This document shows positions 31,639-44,103 of a stretch of DNA of 45,878 nucleotides, in pieces. The stretch is taken from positions 1 to 45,878 of the forward strand of contig CACXCN010000032.1 of assembly GCA_902766095.1 (NCBI GenBank). The letters are read 5' to 3'. Each line of letters starts with the position of its first letter. Positions within the stretch are counted from its first letter, which is position 1. The stretch is from an uncultured Selenomonas sp. GTDB lineage: Bacteria; Bacillota; Negativicutes; Selenomonadales; Selenomonadaceae. Position numbers and translations under genes: made by a program. The notes beneath the pieces were generated by a model that was not told where the DNA came from, did not search any database, and worked only from the letters and a program-made list of their open reading frames with translations.

Positions 31639-34600
31639 TCACTTGGCGAGTGCGTCGCCAAATAACTTTTTCAATCCCGCTTCCATCGTCCCATTCTTTG
31701 CAAATTGCAGCGTATCACAGAGCTTTATGTTGTTTTTCTCGATGTGGATATCATCGCTAAATCCCAGAATGTAACGCAGACAAATCCGATAGATGATTTC
31801 TGTCGGTGCGCAGCCATACACCTGCTTGGCGAATATGTGATTCAGCCTCTCAGCATCATCCGGGAAAAGTTCCTTTATATGGTCGCTCTGGAAAAGCCTT
31901 TTCACGATCTCCGTGATGTACATGCCGGATTTCATGTAGAGGTCGGCAAACGTAGCCTCCGGATTATCGAAACAGCCCGGATTCTCTTCTTCCAGCTGGT
32001 CGACCATATCCTTTACGACGCGCTTGGGCGTGAAAATCTGATTCGTCTTCTGCGGCGGGATGTAAGTAAATATATCCTCGTCATGCTGGCCGCTGAAGTA
32101 GTCCGCCAGTTCTTTCCTCTTCTTTACGAACTCCTGTACCGCATCATCAAATACGACTTCATCGAACAGATGACCATCAAAATGCTTCGTCACTGTTTGG
32201 CCATCTTCATCCGTCACTGTGTAGTCGCCGCCGTCGCGCAGCATCCGGAACTGGTCGAGCGTCACACCGGCACCACTCTGCGGATTCACTGTGACCTCCC
32301 AGAACACATCTGCTGGGACGAGCGTATCAAAATTCGCCAGAGTCGTATTCTCATCGCCATAAGCCATAAGGAATGCCGGTATCGTGCGTGAAAAGCCGCG
32401 CAGATGGTCGCGGACACTGCCTTCGATAGAATTCTTCTCGGCATTCAGCTTCTCTGTCTCGACAGTATCGACGATGGCTGCCGTCGCTGCCTGGACGGTT
32501 TCCTGGTTGCTGAGCTTCTGCTGTATATTTTTGACCATCTGTTGATAGTTCTCTTCTCTGCGCTTCTCATATTCCTCATCCAGTCTGCTGATTTCCGTCA
32601 TCGAGGCGCCCCGCTGCTGGGCATCGGCAATCTTATCCTCCCGTTCCTTTTCGAGCTGGTTATCCTGGATGGTATAGGTACCATATTCACCATTAACGAT
32701 TTGATCCGCATCTTCTTTTATTTTGCGTTCCAGCTTCTTCTGGGTGGATTTTTTGAGATCTCGACCATACTTCTCCTTGGCGGTTCCTATGAGCGTGGTA
32801 GCCAGCGTCCCCGAGAATCTCTCCCGAAGATTATCGAGTTCATTCTTCTTGCCATCCGGATTTTTCCGGAATTCTCCCTTGATATCATTCACGGTTTCTT
32901 CCAGCTGGCTATCGACCTCGCCGAATACTTTTTCCCCGAACAAATCCCGTGCCAGCCCGATCGTCTGCTCCGACAGAATATCGACCTCGCCATTTTCATT
33001 CAGATGCAGATCATCAGCCGTATCCTCATCGATATCGACATCGTCGAGTTTGGACGGCTGCTCGATCGCCTGCATACCATTGATCAAATCGATGATTTCC
33101 TTCGGCGCACCGAATATTCCCGAAATATTGGCAAACAGGAAATTCGACATGAAGCCACGCTCCACGACTTCCTTTGCGTGGATATGCCGCGGAATGGTCA
33201 ATACGGACTCAGCGTCCAGCTCGACCATCGCGCCACCATCATCCTCACCGTAGACCGGGAAGAAATTCAGCAGTTCCCGGACATGCTGCTTGCGCTGATC
33301 GAATTCCCCCTTGTCACCGGACGTCTCCGGTATCAGGTCATTGGCGAACTGTTCGAAAATCGTCAGTGTCCTGGCTGGATCGAAGTCAAACACATAGGCG
33401 TTCTTCTTGCGATAGGAATTTCCCTTCGCATCATGGAAAAGGCACGGGTTCTGCGCGCGGAAAGCTGCCTGCATGTAGAGGGCCGGGCTGGCCATATTCG
33501 AGAGCATCAGCACAGCCGTCCACTCGGGGATTGTCACGCCTGTAGTCAGTTGCCCGACCGACAGCGTGATAGTCTTATCGTATGTCTTTATAGCTTGCGT
33601 GACCCGGCCGAAAGCTTTCTCATTCTCGTTCTCGTCATCATCATCCAGCTTGCCATCGCCGGCTGCTAAGATGATTTCATAGTCCTTGAATACCGGATGA
33701 AGCTCCAGCTTCTTGGCTAGAGCCTTGGCGCTGGCCACACGATTCAGCAGCCAGAATGTATGCTTGAGCTCGTCGCGCAGCTCGGGGGTAGAAAAAGGGA
33801 ATTTCTCCTGCGAAGTCAAGGCATCGAGGAACTTATCCACCTCGGCGTCATGGATGAACTTGCCGGATTCATTCGTCTGGAAGAACTCGTTCAAGTCGAA
33901 CGCGTATTCCTCAACATCATTATCGGCAAGCTCTATCCCCTGCCGCAACTTGTCCTGGACAATAGACGACATCTGGTAGGTGAACAGCGACAGGCGGGGC
34001 AGGTTCTCATACGGGTTTTCGATCTCGCTGGCAGCATCCCAATCGCGTTTTTTCTGCTGCTCGTCAGCATAGGTCCAGTTATAAATCGCGTTCTCCGGGA
34101 ACTTATCATTGGCAAGCGCCTTGAACGGCGTACCGGAAAGGTGCAACGTATATTTGCGGTCAATCTGACTGAAAGCTGTGTCGGTCTTATAGGTGTCCAC
34201 ACCTTCATGTGCTTCATCGATGATGAGGATGTCCCATTTCAGGCCGTGCTTGGCACTGACTTCCTTCAGCTTGTCATAGCTCCCGCCGAAATACAGAGAG
34301 CCCTTCAAATCCTGCAGGCTGACGAACTCGATACAGCCCTTGATGTCATCATCCTCTGATTCCGTTACTTTGTCGTTATATTCCTGCCGGCTCAGGACGT
34401 ATTTCCGGTCCTTGATGCCATCGACGTTGCTGACGAAAAGGTAGCCCGACTGCGGGCCGAAGAACGTCTCATAGTCCTGATACCACGAGTTCGCTATCGC
34501 CGGACGGTTCGTGACAATCAGCACATTCGTCGCGTCGAGTCGCCGACACAGATCATACGCCGACAGCGTCTTGCCGAAACGCGGCTTACAGTTCCAGAGG

Positions 34601-35058
34601 AACTCGCCTCGCTCATGCGACTGGAAATAGTCATAGGCACTCTGCACCGCCTGACCCTGTTCCTCGCGGAGCTTGTAGGGGATGACCGCATCTGCGTCTT
34701 CATCCGCAACGATGCCATGATTCTGAGTGAACTCTACGAAATCCCCACGAGCAGCATTCGGATCAATCTGGAACCACTCCGTTCCCGCCTCGCGGGAGAT
34801 GCCGAGCTTTTTCAGATAGGCATGGAAATCTTTATCCGTGAATGTCCCGAAAGGCTCTGTCATATAGGCCGCCCGCAGATGCCACCAAGTCTTATGGTCG
34901 ACGCCGACAGTGTGTGTCTGCTCCCGGATGCGGGTCTCGACATCCCTCTCGGTAAAGCCGATCTTCGTCCAGCCATCATGTTTCGGTACGCCTGGGGTCG
35001 TATAGGCATAGCACTGCGGAGTGACTTTCGTGGTGGTATTTATCCTGATGCCAGCCAT
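31639..35058 (-). CDS. Restriction helicase with T5orf172 (GIY-YIG-like) N-terminus and methylase-like C-terminus
   Basis: 1139 residues. Order of parts: a T5orf172/GIY-YIG-like nuclease domain (about 15-100: YAYTTPG, then WTKIGFTERDVETRIREQ); an SF2 DEAD/DEAH motor with KPRFGKT (158-164), DEAH (281-284), LSGTPFKAL (near 307) and QAAFRAQNP as motif VI (near 530); a charged helical middle (about 690-860); and a C-terminal piece resembling the start of an N6-adenine methylase (FTP 1009-1011, FADLYMKSG in place of motif I at about 1038-1046) but ending before any NPPY. The ATG at 35058 overlaps the methylase stop by one base (TGATG), with GGAG 8 nt upstream; GTG 35061 is the alternative. Together with the methylase it probably cuts foreign unmodified DNA. 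Confidence 0.83.
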   Translation of the reverse strand: MAGIRINTTTKVTPQCYAYTTPGVPKHDGWTKIGFTERDVETRIREQTHTVGVDHKTWWHLRAAYMTEPFGTFTDKDFHAYLKKLGISREAGTEWFQIDPNAARGDFVEFTQNHGIVADEDADAVIPYKLREEQGQAVQSAYDYFQSHERGEFLWNCKPRFGKTLSAYDLCRRLDATNVLIVTNRPAIANSWYQDYETFFGPQSGYLFVSNVDGIKDRKYVLSRQEYNDKVTESEDDDIKGCIEFVSLQDLKGSLYFGGSYDKLKEVSAKHGLKWDILIIDEAHEGVDTYKTDTAFSQIDRKYTLHLSGTPFKALANDKFPENAIYNWTYADEQQKKRDWDAASEIENPYENLPRLSLFTYQMSSIVQDKLRQGIELADNDVEEYAFDLNEFFQTNESGKFIHDAEVDKFLDALTSQEKFPFSTPELRDELKHTFWLLNRVASAKALAKKLELHPVFKDYEIILAAGDGKLDDDDENENEKAFGRVTQAIKTYDKTITLSVGQLTTGVTIPEWTAVLMLSNMASPALYMQAAFRAQNPCLFHDAKGNSYRKKNAYVFDFDPARTLTIFEQFANDLIPETSGDKGEFDQRKQHVRELLNFFPVYGEDDGGAMVELDAESVLTIPRHIHAKEVVERGFMSNFLFANISGIFGAPKEIIDLINGMQAIEQPSKLDDVDIDEDTADDLHLNENGEVDILSEQTIGLARDLFGEKVFGEVDSQLEETVNDIKGEFRKNPDGKKNELDNLRERFSGTLATTLIGTAKEKYGRDLKKSTQKKLERKIKEDADQIVNGEYGTYTIQDNQLEKEREDKIADAQQRGASMTEISRLDEEYEKRREENYQQMVKNIQQKLSNQETVQAATAAIVDTVETEKLNAEKNSIEGSVRDHLRGFSRTIPAFLMAYGDENTTLANFDTLVPADVFWEVTVNPQSGAGVTLDQFRMLRDGGDYTVTDEDGQTVTKHFDGHLFDEVVFDDAVQEFVKKRKELADYFSGQHDEDIFTYIPPQKTNQIFTPKRVVKDMVDQLEEENPGCFDNPEATFADLYMKSGMYITEIVKRLFQSDHIKELFPDDAERLNHIFAKQVYGCAPTEIIYRICLRYILGFSDDIHIEKNNIKLCDTLQFAKNGTMEAGLKKLFGDALAK

Positions 35059-37055
35059 CACGCCATCTCCTTTACATGCGTTTCGATAAAGTCGATCTCT
35101 TTCTTATCTAAACCGTATTTCTGATACAGCTGGAGGTCAATTTCATGAATCGATTTCGACCAATTGATATCGGATGAAGAGGTAAAATCTTGAAGAGGAA
35201 CATATTTAAACTTATCACCAGTAATATCTTGTGTCGTTTTCAATACATCCAACATGGCTCTAAATATTTTGGTCTTTATATATTTAACTAGCTTTTCTGA
35301 CTCCTCCATCGTATTCAATTTGCCTATTGACAAGAATGATTGTGTATGACCTTCGTATGGACCTGCAATAAACGGTTCAGCTAAAATTTCTCCAAAATGT
35401 CCCGAACCGTTTGCCTTCGATATTAGCACTTTATAAAAGCGATAATTATTTGCCGTAGTAGTGACATACTTGCTAGATATCCAGAGCCCAGTTCTTTTCC
35501 TATTCAGTAAGCCATAAATTTTTATATAGTCTTTTGAGCCTTTATTATTGAAGAATATCTTATTATTCAATTTCTCAAAAACATTTGTTCTTAAGTCAAA
35601 TGACTCTGGAATTAATTCAGCTAATTCCGGATGTTCTATCCTCAATTTGTCAGCAAATTGATATGGCACTGCGCCAACTACTTCTGGTGATAGAAATCTT
35701 TTTGTTTTATTTATGACTTTATTGAATATGGGTTTCATTTCTTGAGGATTTATAAATATTTTTATGGGTGCGAATTCTTTTTTTGAATCAAATAAAGATA
35801 CTGCTATACCACCTTTTATTTCAGTATTAGGAAATACATTACTAGCATTGCTAGAATACTTGAGCACTTTGAAATGAGTGTCATTTAGCTTTTTATTATT
35901 CCATGCCTTCGGTGTCTGGCCTGCATTAAAAAGGAATCTAGCAGGTGTAATAAGTTCGACAACCTTTGCAACTTTCTCTGCTTCATCCATAAAAATATGA
36001 TAAACTGGTGGCTGTCTTCCATTGGTAGCACTTTGTTCCTGGTACGGCGGATTCCCTATTGCATAATCGAAAAGCTTTTTCCCACTCATAACCATATCTC
36101 CTTCAAGATAGTTTTTCAGCGTCTTGAACCGGCGCGAACTATCCCTTCGCCAGTCATATATTTTGCACTGTATTGCCGCCGGTGCTGGTCCCTGATCAAA
36201 CATCCCTGGAATCATAGCAAACAATGACAGCTGCTGGTATTCCTCGTATGGTTTCCCAAAAGGAACGGTGTCCTTCATCCCATCCATCTGCCAGATATTC
36301 CAGGCTATTTTATTCGCTACCTGATGCAGTATTTTCCCCTCGGGCTCTCTCTCCCAGCGCTCCGTATAGTAGTCGACGAATGTCAGTAACAGATTGATCC
36401 TAGCCAGCAGGAGATTGTCCCCCTGATACTCATATCCATAGGTGGCTTCGAACGCTCGGATCGTCCATTTGAGCCACTCCTCATAGTCGGATGTGTTCTC
36501 ATTCACGATACGGAGCTTCCGATCCAGCTGCCCTATGCGATGCTTCGGCGGGACGATCAGTTCGCCGGTAGATACATCATATCGCGACACGAGATACGGC
36601 GCTTCGCCACAGGTGATTTCGAGGCGGCGGGAGTCCACATAGTGCTGCCACAGGGGGATTTTTCGTCTCTTCTGTGCCGGGAATTCGATATTTTCCTCGA
36701 CGACCGTCCAGGTATGATCAGCTTTTTCCGCATTGAACACGTCCCGGCGACCAAACCATTCCTCATCACAGACGTTGTTCATCCTGTTGCAGAGCCAAGC
36801 GGGAGTGAATACCTCCGCCTTTTTCCGCGTTCTGGCGACCTGTGTCTCCTCCGATTTCTGAATGCGTGGCTTGATGATGTCCGCATGCTGCAAAAGCAAC
36901 CCCTTGTTGATCTGTTCCCGATCCGTAAATCCGTGCCCGAACCCTGCATAGGTATCTGTTGCCCAGATGATATTCTTTTTGGTAGACTTATCCTGCAAAA
37001 GTACATCGAGCAATGGCTCGACCAGCGTGCTACCAATATCTATCAGTTTTCCCAT
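35058..37055 (-). CDS. Eco57I-type adenine-specific DNA methylase
   Basis: 665 residues. N6-adenine methylase motifs: FTP motif X (83-85), EITCGEAPYL as the SAM-binding motif I (146-155) and NPPY catalytic motif IV (335-338). The part after about 360 is the probable target-recognition region. Its DNA (roughly 35150-36000) is much more A/T-rich than the surroundings: I count 12 G+C of 60 in 35701-35760. No Shine-Dalgarno precedes the ATG at 37055. Instead it overlaps the stop of a 24-codon ORF by one base (TGATG), so translation probably depends on re-initiation. It is followed by, and overlaps, the T5orf172-helicase gene. It would protect host DNA and may set the sequence specificity. Confidence 0.87.
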   Translation of the reverse strand: MGKLIDIGSTLVEPLLDVLLQDKSTKKNIIWATDTYAGFGHGFTDREQINKGLLLQHADIIKPRIQKSEETQVARTRKKAEVFTPAWLCNRMNNVCDEEWFGRRDVFNAEKADHTWTVVEENIEFPAQKRRKIPLWQHYVDSRRLEITCGEAPYLVSRYDVSTGELIVPPKHRIGQLDRKLRIVNENTSDYEEWLKWTIRAFEATYGYEYQGDNLLLARINLLLTFVDYYTERWEREPEGKILHQVANKIAWNIWQMDGMKDTVPFGKPYEEYQQLSLFAMIPGMFDQGPAPAAIQCKIYDWRRDSSRRFKTLKNYLEGDMVMSGKKLFDYAIGNPPYQEQSATNGRQPPVYHIFMDEAEKVAKVVELITPARFLFNAGQTPKAWNNKKLNDTHFKVLKYSSNASNVFPNTEIKGGIAVSLFDSKKEFAPIKIFINPQEMKPIFNKVINKTKRFLSPEVVGAVPYQFADKLRIEHPELAELIPESFDLRTNVFEKLNNKIFFNNKGSKDYIKIYGLLNRKRTGLWISSKYVTTTANNYRFYKVLISKANGSGHFGEILAEPFIAGPYEGHTQSFLSIGKLNTMEESEKLVKYIKTKIFRAMLDVLKTTQDITGDKFKYVPLQDFTSSSDINWSKSIHEIDLQLYQKYGLDKKEIDFIETHVKEMA

Positions 37056-37420: not shown

Positions 37421-38545
37421 TTACTTCAGCGTTACGAGCTCATACTCGCGCGTGCCCATGCCAATTTTCTCGGCGTGCTCCAGGGTTTCTTTCCAGTGTA
37501 CGTTCGGATTCGAGTCGAGGAACACATCGTGATGATGGTGCCAGTCCGGCTGAGCCAGATGATCGGAGAGCTGGCTGTTCGCGAGCGGGGTGGCTTTCTG
37601 GCAGGCATCGACGCAGGCCTGGTCGAGGGCCACGGGGTCGAAGGAAGCGAACATGCCGATGTTCGGCAGGATAGCGGCGTCGTTCTCGCCATGGCAGTCG
37701 CAGTTCGGCGAGATGTCCATGGCCAGGTTGATATGGAAACAGGGACGGTCCTGCACGACAGCCTGTGCGTACTCGGCCATCTTCTTGTCCAGCTGGTCAC
37801 CGGCATCCCACTGCTCATTGGCAATGGCGTCGAACGAGCAGGCACCGATGCAGCGGCCGCAGCCCTTGCATATCTCCGGATCGATGTAGGCCTTGCCATC
37901 CGGATAGCTGATGGCATCCGAGCCGCACTCACGCGAGCAGCGCCGGCAGCCACGGCAGAGCGACTGATCGACTTTGCATTTGCCCGATGAGTGCTGCTCC
38001 ATCTTGCCGGCCCGGCTGCCGCAGCCCATGCCGATGTTCTTGATGGCGCCGCCGAAGCCGGTCATCTCATGACCTTTGAAATGCGCCAGGCTGATGAACA
38101 CATCGGCGTCCATGATAGCCCGGCCGATTTTCGCCTCTTTGACGTACTCGCCGTTCTTCACCGGCACCGCGACCTCATCCGTGCCGCGCAGACCGTCGCC
38201 AATGATGATCTGGCAGCCCGTCGTCGTCGGATTGAAGCCATTCAGATTTGCGCAGTCCATGTGCTCGAGGGCATGCTTGCGGCTGCCCGGATAGAGCGTG
38301 TTGCAGTCTGTCAGGAAAGGACGTCCGCCTTGCTCCTTTACGAGGTCTGCCACGACCTTGGCGTACTGCGGGCGCAGGAAAGCCATGTTGCCGAGTTCGC
38401 CGAAATGCATCTTGATGGCTACGAATTTGCCTTCCATGTTGATTTTCTTGATACCGGCTGCCAGGCAGAGATTTCTGAGTTTCTGCAGCGTGCTCGTGCC
38501 AACCTGTACCCGGAAATCAGTGAAATAGACTTTGGATTTTTCCAT
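37421..38545 (-). CDS. DUF362-family protein with two [4Fe-4S] ferredoxin motifs
   Basis: 374-residue cytoplasmic iron-sulfur protein. The DUF362 region covers about 1-190 and 270-370 (KMHFGELGNMAFLRP near 45-59, HFKGHEMTGFGGAIKN near 155-170). Inserted between is a bacterial-ferredoxin pair: CRGCRRCSREC and CKGCGRCIGAC, each CxxCxxCxxxC plus a following Ala/Ile-rich strand, enough for two [4Fe-4S] clusters. Such proteins are widespread in anaerobes; their reaction is unknown, though they are often assumed to move electrons. AGGAGGAG lies about 6 nt before the ATG. The large noncoding RNA ends about 125 nt upstream on the same strand. No partner redox gene is adjacent. Confidence 0.88.
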   Translation of the reverse strand: MEKSKVYFTDFRVQVGTSTLQKLRNLCLAAGIKKINMEGKFVAIKMHFGELGNMAFLRPQYAKVVADLVKEQGGRPFLTDCNTLYPGSRKHALEHMDCANLNGFNPTTTGCQIIIGDGLRGTDEVAVPVKNGEYVKEAKIGRAIMDADVFISLAHFKGHEMTGFGGAIKNIGMGCGSRAGKMEQHSSGKCKVDQSLCRGCRRCSRECGSDAISYPDGKAYIDPEICKGCGRCIGACSFDAIANEQWDAGDQLDKKMAEYAQAVVQDRPCFHINLAMDISPNCDCHGENDAAILPNIGMFASFDPVALDQACVDACQKATPLANSQLSDHLAQPDWHHHHDVFLDSNPNVHWKETLEHAEKIGMGTREYELVTLK

Positions 38546-38671
38546 TATTGCTCCTCCTAAATCCAGCTCGAAGAAAGCTGTTTCTCTACACCGTTCATAT
38601 TGTAGATTTCCATGCGGAATCCGAGTTTTCCTGCCCGCAAAGCCATACTTTCTGCGCAGTGTCCGTCATAC

Positions 38672-38746
38672 AAAAAAAGCATAATAAATGACCGCCAGCG
38701 GCTTTCTCGTCACCATCTGGCGGTCCTACGGATGAATCGTTATGCT
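38672..38746 (-). terminator. Composite terminator of the large RNA
   Basis: An inner 9-bp stem GACCGCCAG/CTGGCGGTC (38690-38698 with 38717-38725) is enclosed by AGCATAA/TTATGCT (38678-38684 with 38740-38746), and U7 follows on the minus strand (38672-38678). Confidence 0.82.
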
Positions 38747-39130
38747 ATTTTCCATACCATGCTTTCCATGGCCCTTACCGGCCCATCGGATTCTCCTCCC
38801 TTCTGCTCTGTAGAGATTCCATGTCGGCCGTCGGAGACGCTGAACTTATCTCCAACTCGTACTAGTGAAACACTCCTGACACTCCGATTGTCACTCTCCG
38901 CATGCCAGCGAGCCACAACCAGTTCCCGGTTTACCAGCCGCTGCGTCTTCTCCTGCGCCTTACGCGACTGCCCGAGCCTGTATACCGTGTGTCACGGTAA
39001 CTCCCATCTGCAATTGCTACGGTACCTTCGATGGGAAGCGGCTTTGATCCCCAGCCCCGTCGGACTGCTTATCGCCGCTCAGATAAGTCGCCATCGCTGC
39101 TCCACTCAGCTTTCCTGGTTCCTTATCTTT
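38672..39130 (-). ncRNA. Large structured noncoding RNA (about 460 nt), unidentified
   Basis: It is bounded on the minus strand by a perfect consensus promoter (39137-39165) and a composite terminator (38672-38746), with no plausible protein between. Several hairpins are readable in the transcript: CUUAUC/GAUAAG early on, a CUUCCCAUC/GAUGGGAG arm, UACCGU/ACGGUA with a 5-nt loop, UGACA/UGUCA, GGAGA/UCUCC, and CCAUG/CAUGG with a GAAAG loop. I looked for hallmark strings of RNase P RNA (GAGGAAAGUCC), tmRNA, SRP RNA, cobalamin riboswitch and T-box and found none. It could be a stable trans-acting RNA or a very long leader of the DUF362 gene, though the strong terminator favours the first. Confidence 0.72.
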
Positions 39131-39136
39131 GTCTAT

Positions 39137-39165
39137 ATTATAGCGTGCCGGCCGATGATTGTCAA
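39137..39165 (-). promoter_or_regulatory. Perfect consensus sigma-70 promoter of the large RNA
   Basis: On the minus strand, TTGACA (39160-39165), exactly 17 bp, TATAAT (39137-39142). This is the only full 12-of-12 match I found in the window, and the sort of promoter expected for an abundant stable RNA. Confidence 0.9.
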
Positions 39166-39278
39166 TAAATTTTCTGAAGTTTACATGTATTCAAAATACA
39201 GTGTCCCCTCTGCGGCCAAAACCTGTTTTCCCTGCCCTCGGCAAAGAGTCCCGGGATGCCTTTTTCACCTTGCTTTCA

Positions 39279-39306
39279 TTGACATTTATCCGCAGTGTGT
39301 TAAACT
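39279..39306 (+). promoter_or_regulatory. Promoter of the marR-RND operon
   Basis: TTGACA (39279-39284), a 16-bp spacer and TAAACT (39301-39306). It lies about 100 nt upstream of the marR ATG. TTGA/TCAA-rich sequence at 39310-39345 overlaps the start region and could be the MarR operator. Confidence 0.55.
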
Positions 39307-39409
39307 TTATTTGACAACATCAATCGTTCAAAAAATGGTTGAGATTCTGCGGGCGGAGCGGTGAAGAGAGAACACTGCTACAGCCTGATGATAATGGGGG
39401 ATTTGGATT

Positions 39410-39949
39410 ATGGATGATCAGTTCGTAGCTGATAACTATGTAAATGTAGGACGCTGGTTCACGCTGCTGCACAGGCGTTCCCAGCAGTTCGTCAATGAGG
39501 CCTGCGCCCAACTGGAGCTGACCTTTTCGGAATATATCATGCTGATCCGTATATTCGATCATGAGGGTGCCAAACAGGATGAGCTGGCTACATTGCTCTG
39601 CCTGGACAAGGCCGTGGTGACGCGTACGATCAATTCGCTGCAGAAGAAGGGGCTCATCTACCGCGAGCAGGACAGTTCCGACCGGCGGGTGCGCCATATC
39701 TATCTGACGGACTACGGCAAGCGCCAGCACATCTATCTGCGCAATATCATACAGAAATGGGTCGACTATCTCGTCGAAGATATGTCCCCGGATCAGATCA
39801 ACTTCATGATCAAGGGGTTCGACCAGCTCGTGACCAAGGCCATCGCCTGCGATATAACGAAGCTGGCCCAGAATATCCCCATGGATAAACCGCTGCCACT
39901 GTCCAACCACAAGGTGCAAAAAGGAGATATCAACTATGCGCAGGAATAA
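39410..39949 (+). CDS. MarR-family transcriptional regulator
   Basis: 179-residue winged helix-turn-helix regulator. The core is at about 30-110: LTFSEYIMLIRIFDHEG, KQDELATLLCLDKAVVTRTINSL as recognition helix region (near 58-80), and the wing with the family motif DRRVRHIYLT (near 90-99). It is somewhat longer than usual at the C-terminus, with a helical tail. GGGGG lies about 10 nt before the ATG. The reading frame overlaps the adaptor gene by 14 nt, so the two are translationally coupled and the regulator probably controls its own operon, as for many MarR-linked pumps. Confidence 0.92.
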   Translation: MDDQFVADNYVNVGRWFTLLHRRSQQFVNEACAQLELTFSEYIMLIRIFDHEGAKQDELATLLCLDKAVVTRTINSLQKKGLIYREQDSSDRRVRHIYLTDYGKRQHIYLRNIIQKWVDYLVEDMSPDQINFMIKGFDQLVTKAIACDITKLAQNIPMDKPLPLSNHKVQKGDINYAQE

Positions 39950-41042
39950 AGCTGTACTCGGCGCGCTGGCCGGCCTGCTGAGCCTGAACCTCCTGCTGAG
40001 CGGCTGCGGTAAAGAGGCCACGAGTCCCAGGCCGCCCCTGGTAAAGACCCAGGAAGCCGGCTCGGCATCCGCTCAGATGGATAATGTCTACTCCGGCACG
40101 GTGCGCGGCCGCTATGAGACGAATATGGCCTTCCAGGTCGGCGGTCAGATCATCGCCCGCAATGTCCAGGTCGGCTCCCGGGTCAGTGCCGGGGACACGC
40201 TGATGGTGCTCGATCCGCGCGATGTCCAGCAGCAGGCCAACAGCGGTGACGCTGCGGTGGCCTCGGCCCGCGCCCAGCTGAGTCTCGCGCAAGCCAACCT
40301 GGCCCGCTACTCGGAGCTCTACCGCGAGGAAGCTGTATCTGCCTCGGTGCTCGACCAGTATCAGACGAACTACGATGCCGCTTTTGCGGCCTATCAGTCG
40401 GCGCTGGCCCAGTCAGCCGAGGGACACAACGCCCTCGGCTACTCGAATCTGACGGCAGGAGCCAATGGCGTCATCACGAACATAACCGCTGAAGAAGGAC
40501 AGGTCGTGGCCGCCGGTCAGACCGTGCTAACGCTCGTGCAGACCGACGAGCTCGAGATCGAGATCAATATCCCTGAGAATCACATCAATGAGGTGACCGT
40601 AGACCAGCCCGTCGAGGTCACCTTCTGGGCTCTGCCGGGTACATATTCCGGTCAGGTGCGCGAGATCGCCCCGATGGCGGATTCGGCCTCGCGTACCTAT
40701 CGCGTGCGCATCTCCCTGCCCCAGCCGCCCGAGGGGATGCAGCTCGGCATGACTGCCAGCGTGACGCTCAGCGAGACGCCGAACGCCCTGTCCGACACCA
40801 CCGCTGAGGCGGATAATGCGGCGACCGGCTGCATCCTGCCGCTCGCCGCGATCTACCAGACGGGCGATGCCCCGCAGGTCTGGGTAGTCACGGACGACTC
40901 TACGGTGCAGCTGAAATCCGTCGAGGTCGAAGATTTCGGCGACGACAAAGTACTGGTCCATGGCCTGGCGCCTACGGATCTCGTAGTCATCGCTGGCGTT
41001 CATCGTCTGCGCGAGGGCGAGACCGTGCGGACACAGGAGTGA
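39936..41042 (+). CDS. RND efflux periplasmic adaptor lipoprotein
   Basis: 368-residue membrane-fusion protein. A lipoprotein signal with lipobox LSGC (Cys24) leads to a lipoyl half-motif (about 60-90: FQVGGQIIARNVQVGSRVSAGD), a helical hairpin (about 100-150: AVASARAQLSLAQANLARYSELY), a second lipoyl half (about 175-205: TAGANGVITNITAEEGQVV), a beta-barrel domain and a membrane-proximal domain. AAGGAG lies 9 nt before the ATG inside the marR gene. It links the inner-membrane pump (7 nt downstream) to an outer-membrane channel, which is not encoded in this window. Confidence 0.92.
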   Translation: MRRNKAVLGALAGLLSLNLLLSGCGKEATSPRPPLVKTQEAGSASAQMDNVYSGTVRGRYETNMAFQVGGQIIARNVQVGSRVSAGDTLMVLDPRDVQQQANSGDAAVASARAQLSLAQANLARYSELYREEAVSASVLDQYQTNYDAAFAAYQSALAQSAEGHNALGYSNLTAGANGVITNITAEEGQVVAAGQTVLTLVQTDELEIEINIPENHINEVTVDQPVEVTFWALPGTYSGQVREIAPMADSASRTYRVRISLPQPPEGMQLGMTASVTLSETPNALSDTTAEADNAATGCILPLAAIYQTGDAPQVWVVTDDSTVQLKSVEVEDFGDDKVLVHGLAPTDLVVIAGVHRLREGETVRTQE

Positions 41043-41049
41043 GGTGCCT

Positions 41050-44000
41050 ATGCGAAATCTCACTGAAATAGCTCTGAAAAACCGGATCCTCGTCTGGTAC
41101 TTCATCATCATGACAGCCATCGGCGGCATATTCGCCTACAACAAGCTCGGCCGCATGGAGGACCCGCAGTTCACCATCCGCGAGATGGTCATCCAGGCCA
41201 ACTGGCCGGGCGCTACGGCCCGCGAGATGCAGGACCAGGTAACGGACAAACTCGAGAAGAAGATACAGGATATCCCGGGGCTCGACAAACTCGAAAGCGA
41301 GACCCGCGAGGGCCAGACCGTCATCTATGTCACGCTGAAGGATGAAGTCCCGAAAAGCTCGATCCGCGATACTTGGCGCGATGTGCGCAATTTCTGCGAG
41401 GAGCTCAAGAACGAGGGCGGTCTGCCGGACGGCGTCTATGGACCGTTCTACAATGACCGTTTCGACGACGTCTACGGCTCCATATACGCAGTGACCGGCG
41501 ACGGCTACAACTATGAGGAAATGCGGCGCTACGCCGAAAATACCCGTCGCATGATCCTGCAGCTGGACAGCGTGCAGAAAGTCGAACTCATCGGCGAGCA
41601 GCCCGAGCATGTATATGTCGAGCTCTCGCGAGCCAAGATATCTGAGCTCGGCATCAGCCCGCAGGTCATTTCCCAGGCCCTGTCTGGCCAAAACAATATG
41701 ACGGCCTCCGGCATGCTCGAAACCGACAGCAACAACGTCTATCTGCGCGTCAGCGGCGAGTACAAGGACCTCGACGATATCCGCAACACCCCGATCAATG
41801 CCAACGGCCGCGTCCTGCGCCTCGGCGACATCGCAAAGGTCGAGCGGAAATTCGTCGATCCGCCGGAGCCCAAGATGTATTTCAACGGTGAACCGGCCAT
41901 CGGCATCGCCGTCTCCATGGAGGATGGCGGCAATATCCTGAAGCTCGGTGAAAACCTGAAGAAGACGATTGCCCGCATCAGCGATGACCTGCCGGTCGGC
42001 CTCGAGATTCATCAGGTATCGAACCAGCCGGCTGTCGTCCAGAATTCCATCCATGACTTCGTCAAGACGTTGTTCGAAGCGATCGTCATCGTGCTGGCCG
42101 TCAGCTTCCTGTCGCTCGGCATGCGCACCGGCCTCGTCGTCGCCTGCTGCATACCGCTCGTGCTCTGCGGCACGTTCGTCGCCATGTACCTGTTCGGCAT
42201 CGACCTGCACAAAGTCTCGCTGGGCTCGCTCATCATAGCGCTCGGCCTGCTCGTCGATGATGCCATCATCGCGGTCGAGATGATGAGCGTCCAGCTCGAG
42301 CGCGGCCATGACCGCTTCACGGCCGCCTGCTACGCGTTCAATGCGACCGCGAAACCGATGCTGACTGGTACGCTCATCACCTGCTGCGGCTTCATCCCCG
42401 TAGCTTTCTCCATCGGTATGGCGGCCGAGTTCTGTCAGGCTCTGTTCCCGGTCATCAGCATCGCCCTGCTGCTGTCCTGGATTGTCTCGGTCATGGTGGC
42501 CCCGCTGTTCGGCTACCACCTGATAAAAGTCGAGGTTAAGAAGGATGCCGAGGGACATATCGACCCGTATCAGAGCAAATTCTACACCTACTTCCGTCAG
42601 CTGCTGCACTTCTTCCTGAGTCACCGGAAGCCCGTACTCATCGGCACGCTGCTGCTGTTCCTGGTATCGTGCTTCACGATGACGAAAATCAAGCAGGAAT
42701 TCTTCCCGCCGTCGCTGCGACCGGAAATCCTGGTGCAGATGAAGCTGCCAGAGGGCTCGTCCATGGCAGCTACTCAGGAAGCCTGCAACCGCATGTCAGA
42801 CTGGCTGTCTGAGCGTCAGGACATGCTCGACAACTATTCCTACTACGTCGGGCAGTACGCACCGCGCTTCGTGCTGACGGTCGATCCGAAAGCGAATACC
42901 GACAGCGCCGGTGAATTCGTCATCGTGGCCAAAGATACCGAATCGCGCACAAAACTGGCCAATGAGCTGGAGGAAGCCTTCACGGATGAATTCAGCGACA
43001 TCGAGTCGAATATCCAGTTCATCCAGACCGGCCCGCCGGCCGATTATCCAGTCATGCTGCGCGTGACCGGCCGTACGGTGGATGAGGCGAAAGACCTCGC
43101 CGCCCAGGTCGCAGACATCGTAGCTGACGACCCGAACAACTACAACATCACGACCGACTGGGGACCGAAGAGCAAGGTCATGCACCTCGAGCTCGACCAG
43201 AACAAGCTGCGCTCGCTAGGGCTTTCCTCGCAGGTCGTCACCCAGATGATATACACGGAGCTCACCGGAGCACAGGCCGCCCAGTTCTACAGCGGCGACC
43301 GCACCATAGATATCGACCTGCGGCTTGCCGATACGGACCGCCACAGCCTCGCCGATATGAAGTCCCTGCCGATATACCTCGGCAGCGCCGGCTATGTACC
43401 ACTCGATCAGATTGCCAAAATCTCCTATGACGCCGAAGAAGGGCTCATAAAGCGCCATAACCTCCTGCCGACCGTCACCGTCCGCGCCGCTATCCACAGC
43501 GGTACCGCGAATGATGCGACACAGAAAGCCTATGACGCGACGCAGCAGCTGCGCGCCAACCTGCCGCTCGGCTGCTCCATCGAACCCACCGGCTCGCTCG
43601 AGGACAGTGACGATGCATCGAAATATCTCGTGACGCCGATACCGGCCATGATATTCATCATCATGACGCTGCTCATGCTGCAGCTGCGCAGTGCCAAGCT
43701 CATGCTGCTGACCATATTGACGGCGCCACTCGGCATCATCGGGGTGGCCTGGGGCATGCTCCTGTTCAACAGCGCGCTTGGCTTCGTCTCCGAGCTGGGC
43801 ATACTGGCCCTCTCTGGCATGATCATCCGCAATTCGGTCATACTGATCGACCAGATACAGAAACATCTGGCCGCCGGCGAGGATCCCTATGATGCGATCA
43901 TCGATTCGGCCGTTCTGCGCTTCCGGCCGATCATGCTGACCGCTGCAGCAGCCATATTGGGCATGGTCCCGCTCATGGCCAGCACATTCTGGGGCCCGAT

Positions 44001-44103
44001 GGCCGTAGCCATCGCGAGCGGCCTGTTCGTCGCCACGGTGCTGACGCTGCTGGTCCTGCCGACCATGTACGCCGTCGCCTACCATGTAGAAAATAAGGGC
44101 TAA
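41050..44103 (+). CDS. RND-family efflux permease (AcrB-like)
   Basis: 1017-residue inner-membrane proton-driven pump of full length: one N-terminal membrane helix, a large periplasmic loop, membrane helices 2-6, a second periplasmic loop and helices 8-12. The proton relay acidic pair is present in GLLVDDAII (Asp403-Asp404, membrane helix 4). The closest style is the single-adaptor drug/cation exporters whose first residues read NLTEIALKNR. ATG 41050 is preferred to GTG 41044 because GAGG precedes it by 5 nt. It is the last gene of the operon and ends at the terminator at 44127-44173. Substrates cannot be told from sequence. Confidence 0.94.
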   Translation: MRNLTEIALKNRILVWYFIIMTAIGGIFAYNKLGRMEDPQFTIREMVIQANWPGATAREMQDQVTDKLEKKIQDIPGLDKLESETREGQTVIYVTLKDEVPKSSIRDTWRDVRNFCEELKNEGGLPDGVYGPFYNDRFDDVYGSIYAVTGDGYNYEEMRRYAENTRRMILQLDSVQKVELIGEQPEHVYVELSRAKISELGISPQVISQALSGQNNMTASGMLETDSNNVYLRVSGEYKDLDDIRNTPINANGRVLRLGDIAKVERKFVDPPEPKMYFNGEPAIGIAVSMEDGGNILKLGENLKKTIARISDDLPVGLEIHQVSNQPAVVQNSIHDFVKTLFEAIVIVLAVSFLSLGMRTGLVVACCIPLVLCGTFVAMYLFGIDLHKVSLGSLIIALGLLVDDAIIAVEMMSVQLERGHDRFTAACYAFNATAKPMLTGTLITCCGFIPVAFSIGMAAEFCQALFPVISIALLLSWIVSVMVAPLFGYHLIKVEVKKDAEGHIDPYQSKFYTYFRQLLHFFLSHRKPVLIGTLLLFLVSCFTMTKIKQEFFPPSLRPEILVQMKLPEGSSMAATQEACNRMSDWLSERQDMLDNYSYYVGQYAPRFVLTVDPKANTDSAGEFVIVAKDTESRTKLANELEEAFTDEFSDIESNIQFIQTGPPADYPVMLRVTGRTVDEAKDLAAQVADIVADDPNNYNITTDWGPKSKVMHLELDQNKLRSLGLSSQVVTQMIYTELTGAQAAQFYSGDRTIDIDLRLADTDRHSLADMKSLPIYLGSAGYVPLDQIAKISYDAEEGLIKRHNLLPTVTVRAAIHSGTANDATQKAYDATQQLRANLPLGCSIEPTGSLEDSDDASKYLVTPIPAMIFIIMTLLMLQLRSAKLMLLTILTAPLGIIGVAWGMLLFNSALGFVSELGILALSGMIIRNSVILIDQIQKHLAAGEDPYDAIIDSAVLRFRPIMLTAAAAILGMVPLMASTFWGPMAVAIASGLFVATVLTLLVLPTMYAVAYHVENKG

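Follow-up and report, generated by a model that had tools for sequence, protein, structure and literature searches.

What is encoded between a divergent pair of genes in an uncultured Selenomonas sp., where a promoter that could hardly be better is followed by hairpins instead of a recognisable gene? The locus lies on the minus strand of a 45,878-nt stretch of DNA (contig CACXCN010000032.1 of GenBank assembly GCA_902766095.1), which was analysed whole and is called the window here. The original prediction, made by reading the letters, was of a structured RNA of ~460 nt, possibly of a lineage-specific class.

Promoter, terminator and search for known classes

The features of the locus are collected in Table 1. 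The perfect consensus promoter of the original prediction was found as described and, judged by its sequence, should be strong and of the housekeeping type. Relatives have an equivalent promoter at the matching position, directly 5' of a shorter RNA, and promoter-like sites precede nearly all units of the family (a unit being a Shine-Dalgarno (SD) sequence, an AUG and an ultrashort open reading frame (ORF)). In type-1 copies (see below; L017, L019-L021), an A/T-rich box, GAATACAT...CTGAAAA, is conserved directly upstream of the -35 element (window 39160-39194, minus strand); it may be an UP element or bind a regulator.

Table 1. Features of the RNA locus, in window coordinates
Feature	Position	Strand	Basis or remark
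Promoter TTGACA-17-TATAAT	39165-39137	minus	12/12 consensus matches
Whole inferred RNA, ~459 nt	38672..39130	minus	5' end inferred from -10 box
5' extension, ~265 nt between promoter and core	38866..39130	minus	z -2.7
P1 hairpin GUUGGAGA-UAAGUUCAGC-GUCUCCGAC	38830..38856	minus	Alignment; loop AAGUUCAG common to relatives
Conserved type-1 linker GCCGACAUG	38820..38828	minus	Alignments
Shine-Dalgarno AAGGGAGG	38795..38802	minus	8 nt before AUG; near-invariant in 35-sequence alignment A1
Start-codon hairpin UCC.AUGG...CCAU.GGA, stop codon in loop	38765..38790	minus	Individual folds
Ultrashort ORF AUG-GGC-CGG-UAA (fMet-Gly-Arg-stop)	38786-38775	minus	Stop conserved across 71-73 units
Inner terminator hairpin	38725-38690	minus	Loop holds 13-mer GUGACGAGAAAGC at 38713-38701
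Outer terminator helix GCAUAA/UUAUGC		minus	Encloses inner hairpin
U7 tract of terminator	38678-38672	minus	Sequence
Downstream neighbour, DUF362 / 4Fe-4S protein	37421..38545	minus	Pfam

That the RNA is structured was upheld by folding. Minus-strand 39130-38672 gave -168.6 kcal/mol, against -145.0 +/- 5.7 kcal/mol in dinucleotide shuffles (z -4.1), and 0 of 100 shuffles were as low; folded separately, the 3' core had a z of -3.9 and the 5' extension a z of -2.7. The predicted two-layer terminator with its U7 is likewise present, as an inner hairpin, an outer helix and a T7 tract. It escaped a simple terminator scan, whose limit on loop length the inner hairpin probably exceeds. The 13-mer in this loop, GUGACGAGAAAGC, occurs once in the genome of the window (G000) and, in most genomes carrying it, at this RNA only. 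Matches in g12, in G050 and an extra one in G123 were rejected as members; they have no unit motif nearby and resemble coding sequence. From these features we infer that the window RNA is transcribed as a stand-alone, structured molecule, stable and probably highly expressed. A 250-aa ORF on the plus strand (38612-39364) was rejected, as it has no Pfam match and the indels among relatives fit an RNA and not a coding sequence.

To place the RNA among known classes, we searched the 4227 covariance models of Rfam 15, with membership defined as a score at or above the gathering threshold. In the whole window, nothing reached threshold except a tRNA at the edge; the RNA region, searched at E<=10, gave nothing but two chance-level matches; and seven relatives, at E<=0.1, gave tRNAs only, plus a sub-threshold YrlA overlap in a tRNA array. 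The scan, proposed as a check at the outset, thus found no match for the RNA at the locus, in the window or in relatives. RNase P RNA, tmRNA, SRP RNA, the cobalamin riboswitch and T-box, whose hallmarks were said to be absent by eye, are indeed not matched at the locus, and neither are other riboswitches or the large ornate classes (OLE, ROOL or raiA-type) that the eye alone could not exclude. RNase P RNA and 6S RNA were rejected on the further ground that the genome has its own copies elsewhere (G000:C43, 289 bits, and G000:C70, 58 bits, respectively).

Distribution and architecture of the conserved core

When the window RNA was compared by BLAST with 100 related genomes, the 3' part alone matched, in other genera of Selenomonadaceae. 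The relatives' transcripts align with window 38866-38672 and define a shared 3' core of ~190 nt. Because the relatives' promoter directly precedes this ~190-nt transcript, the 5' ~265 nt of the window RNA is an extension between promoter and core. The predicted length of ~460 nt therefore holds for the lineage of the window and fails as the length of the class. BLAST against the 100 related genomes and all fetched loci found no convincing relative of the extension. A mobile or phage origin was considered and rejected: the extension had no plasmid match, the whole window RNA no phage match and the core motif no match in viral contigs. The longest versions, of ~600 nt, are those of genus g8 (L104-L117), in which the minigene is placed about halfway along and is separated by 310-355 nt from the conserved terminator loop downstream of it.

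An RNA gene with the ~190-nt core is present in about 60 Selenomonadaceae genomes of 11 genera, at varied loci, so that the conservation in related species on which the original prediction depended was found. The best-conserved stretch is GGAGGNGANUCCRAUGGG. As a DNA pattern, this 18-nt motif occurs in 57 of the 189 family genomes, mostly in 1-2 copies each and with degenerate units possibly under-sampled, since the first search pattern contained ATGGG; the reversed control pattern gave about four matches. A form of the motif with a variable gap added genus g25. The covariance model R1 recovered the same genera as the pattern, plus five second copies in genus g3. Half-decayed copies were not seen at the DUF362 locus. 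Outside Selenomonadaceae, searches at class and phylum level returned background only, and the matches inspected were ordinary gene starts, for example that of an rpsB-like gene (L252/L253) and that of a ferredoxin-type protein (L172/L173). Over this range the family was found only in Selenomonas-type Selenomonadaceae; the suggestion of a lineage-specific class was correct, in that the RNA was found in Selenomonadaceae only and has no Rfam entry.

Many genomes carry two paralogous RNAs, which we call type 1 and type 2. Type-1 RNAs, that of the window included, consist of P1, the GCCGACAUG linker, a minigene hairpin (UCC.AUGGG...stop...CCCAU.GGA) and the terminator. Type-2 RNAs have the same minigene module and a P1 capped by GGUAAURGCUAGCC; they lie near an IMP dehydrogenase-like gene in Selenomonas, and are also found in g3.

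The covariation among relatives that was to be looked for is present. Two-sided compensatory changes, our criterion for a structured RNA, are found in the terminator helix (95% paired; 45 two-sided cells versus 9.7 in shuffles) and in the type-2 P1 (changes in 7 of 8 pairs; 25 such cells versus 8.5 in shuffles). In individual folds of type-1 P1, the arms differ between genomes yet stay complementary. The start-codon hairpin has 79% of its cells paired and zero two-sided changes, its 5' arm being invariant across the alignment.

The ultrashort open reading frame

On one point the original prediction was wrong: it saw no credible ORF on the minus strand, where the core holds a 3-codon ORF with a strong SD that is conserved family-wide (Table 1). 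The motif consists of the SD, AUG, GGN and then a stop. By minigene we mean an SD and an AUG that are followed, no more than a few codons on, by a stop in frame, with this arrangement itself conserved; the RNA family has such a minigene.

We determined the position of the stop in 71 distinct units from 11 genera, a set that includes the g3 copies and in which the sequences are related, so that the counts are not independent events. Codon 2 is never a stop. Codon 3 is one in 12 units, in none of which codon 4 is a stop as well; codon 3 is a sense codon in the other 59, and in 56 of these codon 4 is UAA, UGA or UAG. Collapsed to distinct codon sets per genus, the codon-4 stop is present in 22/25 sets with a sense codon 3 versus 0/8 with a stop codon 3. 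Within each of the genera g25, g3 and g10, some units stop at codon 3 and others at codon 4. Among the 73 units of a second set, which differs slightly from the first, the encoded peptides were MGP (18), MGH (14), MGR (12), MG (11), MGQ (5), MGY (4), MGW (4) and MGF (2), the remaining types being MGT, MGQGE and MGLDNR, and the stops were UAA (42), UGA (17) and UAG (14). The other two frames of these 73 units are open for varied lengths, with no comparable limit.

Since each of UAA, UGA and UAG serves as the stop and codon 3 is variable (Pro, His, Arg, Gln, Tyr, Trp, Phe or Thr), what is kept is the stop, and not the sequence or the peptide. The simplest reading is that there is selection for an early stop, independent of the peptide and of the local sequence. 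A dual-function small RNA with a conserved functional peptide was rejected because the third residue is any of these eight or absent. The five second-copy RNAs of genus g3 have an altered SD-AUG spacing and still encode MGP-stop. The exceptions to the codon-4 stop are L011, which stops at codon 6, L164, which stops at codon 7, and L246, which reads through owing to an 8-nt duplication by which a second AUG-GGC-AGG-UAA arises just downstream.

Some single RNAs hold 2 or 3 units (L122, L009, L162, L163), and three g14 genomes have two units in one RNA. The RNA of G021 (L122:1513-1800) has three minigene units in series, encoding MGR, MGT and MGR.

Predicted accessibility of the SD showed no clear enrichment (mean unpaired 0.44 versus 0.41 for the whole RNA), and the predicted openness of the AUG was slightly below the RNA average. 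Because a ribosome-binding site and a 2-3 codon ORF are the most conserved part, ribosome binding, and not the making of a protein, is suggested to be the job of this RNA.

Candidate functions and genomic setting

Our preferred reading is that these RNAs form a new family whose minigene engages ribosomes as they initiate, with ribosome engagement itself as the function (as a decoy, a sensor or an occupancy-stabilised regulator); our judgement of it is evenly balanced. The RNA would be made from its strong housekeeping-type promoter and end at its own terminator, and its ribosome-binding module would comprise the strong SD, the AUG inside a small hairpin and the stop after 2-3 codons. A 30S subunit would initiate at the minigene AUG, and the ribosome would make formyl-Met-Gly(-X) and terminate without leaving its initial footprint. 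In this way, the RNA would hold or cycle a ribosome rather than encode a protein. Most likely, occupancy would be its business: the RNA would act in trans as a decoy for ribosomes or initiation, or else would be switched and stabilised according to its occupancy. The family, promoter, helices, terminator loop, ORF conservation and independence from neighbours were computed; transcription, actual initiation and a biological outcome are what the model would add to them. P1, the GCUAGC loop and the terminator loop count against it, as they are not explained by ribosome binding alone.

In the lambda bar minigene, the AUG behind a strong SD is followed by a stop one or a few codons on, and it is the act of initiation that matters. 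The same arrangement is found in the EHEC LEE1 leader minigene and in axe-txe mg2, where initiation matters and the peptide does not (PMC8708949). Published minigenes with a strong SD serve as elements of leaders and can shield the transcript, and toxicity is greatest in very short ones (PMC8708949); it is for this reason that we favour ribosome engagement. Known minigenes are, however, artificial or part of an mRNA leader, whereas the RNAs of this family stand alone, are structured and have the minigene as their invariant core, some of them with two or three copies of it.

Other known RNAs share only part of this arrangement. The dual-function small RNAs RNAIII/hld, SgrS/SgrT and SR1 are structured RNAs that also hold an ORF with an SD, but theirs encode functional peptides of tens of residues, in contrast to the 2-3 residues, the third variable, found here. 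OLE, GOLLD, ROOL, HEARO and raiA are large structured bacterial RNAs of limited phylogenetic spread; unlike them, this RNA matches none of the Rfam models. We found no report of this RNA family in the literature searched, although a large screen may list it as an unnamed motif, and we are not aware of another RNA family that stands alone and has an invariant ORF of 2-3 codons. By its conservation, the window RNA is a member of a previously uncatalogued structured RNA family of Selenomonas and close relatives. What is best conserved in it is an ORF of so few codons that it could not encode anything, and that RNA annotators would normally discard; a cut-off on ORF length can conceal selected translation in RNAs taken to be 'noncoding'. 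Should ribosomes indeed start at this ORF, the RNA would be a natural one that functions by initiating and terminating translation as such, and it would offer a model, open to testing, of ribosome titration, initiation sensing or minigene biology. The hosts are bacteria of the rumen, gut and mouth, whose RNAs have received little study.

The multiple units and the paralogues tilt us slightly towards a role in trans. We put forward only tentatively the more specific version, in which a natural, abundant trans-acting decoy loads ribosomes on 2-3 codon minigenes to hold or meter initiation capacity. The logic would be comparable to that of hibernation factors and 6S RNA, but the decoy would act on translation initiation via an SD and a start codon.

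The chief alternative is that the RNA is a sponge for protein and imitates the start region of an mRNA, the SD-AUG hairpin being the site for a putative RNA-binding translational regulator. We consider this doubtful, and equally so its corollary that the early stop merely keeps ribosomes from running through the RNA, as losing the AUG would stop read-through more simply than keeping a stop. Several units per RNA and two paralogues per genome do look sponge-like, and the conserved P1 and terminator loop leave room for protein binding. A sponge would also fit a Megasphaera-like genome in which an ordinary secreted-protein gene begins with a similar hairpin and AGGAGGAGATTCCAATGGGC leader, followed by a full ORF (L171:1400-1530). 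The many GGA motifs prompted a comparison with the CsrB/CsrC/RsmZ sponges, which are also stand-alone RNAs with a strong promoter and repeated GGA-containing, SD-like motifs. CsrA, the best-known such regulator, has no match in four RNA-bearing genomes (G009, G038 and G056, of the Mitsuokella type (g10), and G021), so a CsrA sponge of the CsrB/RsmZ type is not a general explanation and was rejected. The present family differs from these sponges in having no Rfam match, in being kept without CsrA and in having an AUG and a conserved stop.

Ribosome engagement could also be a means and not the end. In a base-pairing small RNA, the minigene ribosome on its strong SD would shield the RNA from nucleases while other loops pair with mRNAs. 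The loop sequences GUGACGAGAAAGC and GGUAAUAGCUAGCC are conserved, and the strong SDs of minigenes have been reported to protect transcripts from RNase E (PMC8708949). We nonetheless think this unlikely: a search of both strands of G000 with GUGACGAGAAAGC returned the RNA itself and nothing else, which leaves no perfect 13-nt target, and stabilisation would not require 2-3 units per RNA.

A cis-acting leader (attenuator or riboswitch), in which minigene occupancy controls terminator read-through into the downstream gene, would agree with minigenes being known leader elements (PMC8708949) and with the position of DUF362, which starts 144-271 nt downstream of the RNA start codon in many Selenomonas and Mitsuokella genomes. 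This synteny does not make DUF362 a fixed partner: many DUF362 genes of related genera have no such RNA. Depending on the genus, the gene downstream is DUF362, IMP dehydrogenase-like, an MFS-type transporter, an ABC ATPase, chemoreceptor-like or oligopeptide-transporter-like (names other than DUF362 being assigned by eye), and at L132 and L154 it is convergent. This variety and the two convergent cases indicate a stand-alone gene, not simply a leader, and make the cis-acting model quite improbable. A leader or riboswitch for DUF362 in particular was rejected, as there is no constant co-directional downstream gene or pathway.

Lastly, the locus might hold no functional RNA, its promoter, hairpins and terminator having arisen by chance between genes; this would suit a 5' extension without relatives but is scarcely credible beside the motif counts and their reversed control, the covarying helices and the conserved stop codons.

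Divergent from the RNA in the window are a MarR regulator gene and efflux genes of the HlyD and AcrB types (39410-44103, plus strand); none of these was seen beside the RNA in the relatives examined. DUF362 is followed closely by a restriction-modification locus (ResIII-type helicase and Eco57I-type methylase; 31639-37055, minus strand). Elsewhere, tRNA genes adjoin some copies of the RNA (L012, at a tRNA array, and L126). In Succiniclasticum-type genomes (L030, L037), a different conserved leader with a strong promoter takes the same position, within ~200 nt before DUF362, and may be another uncatalogued RNA.
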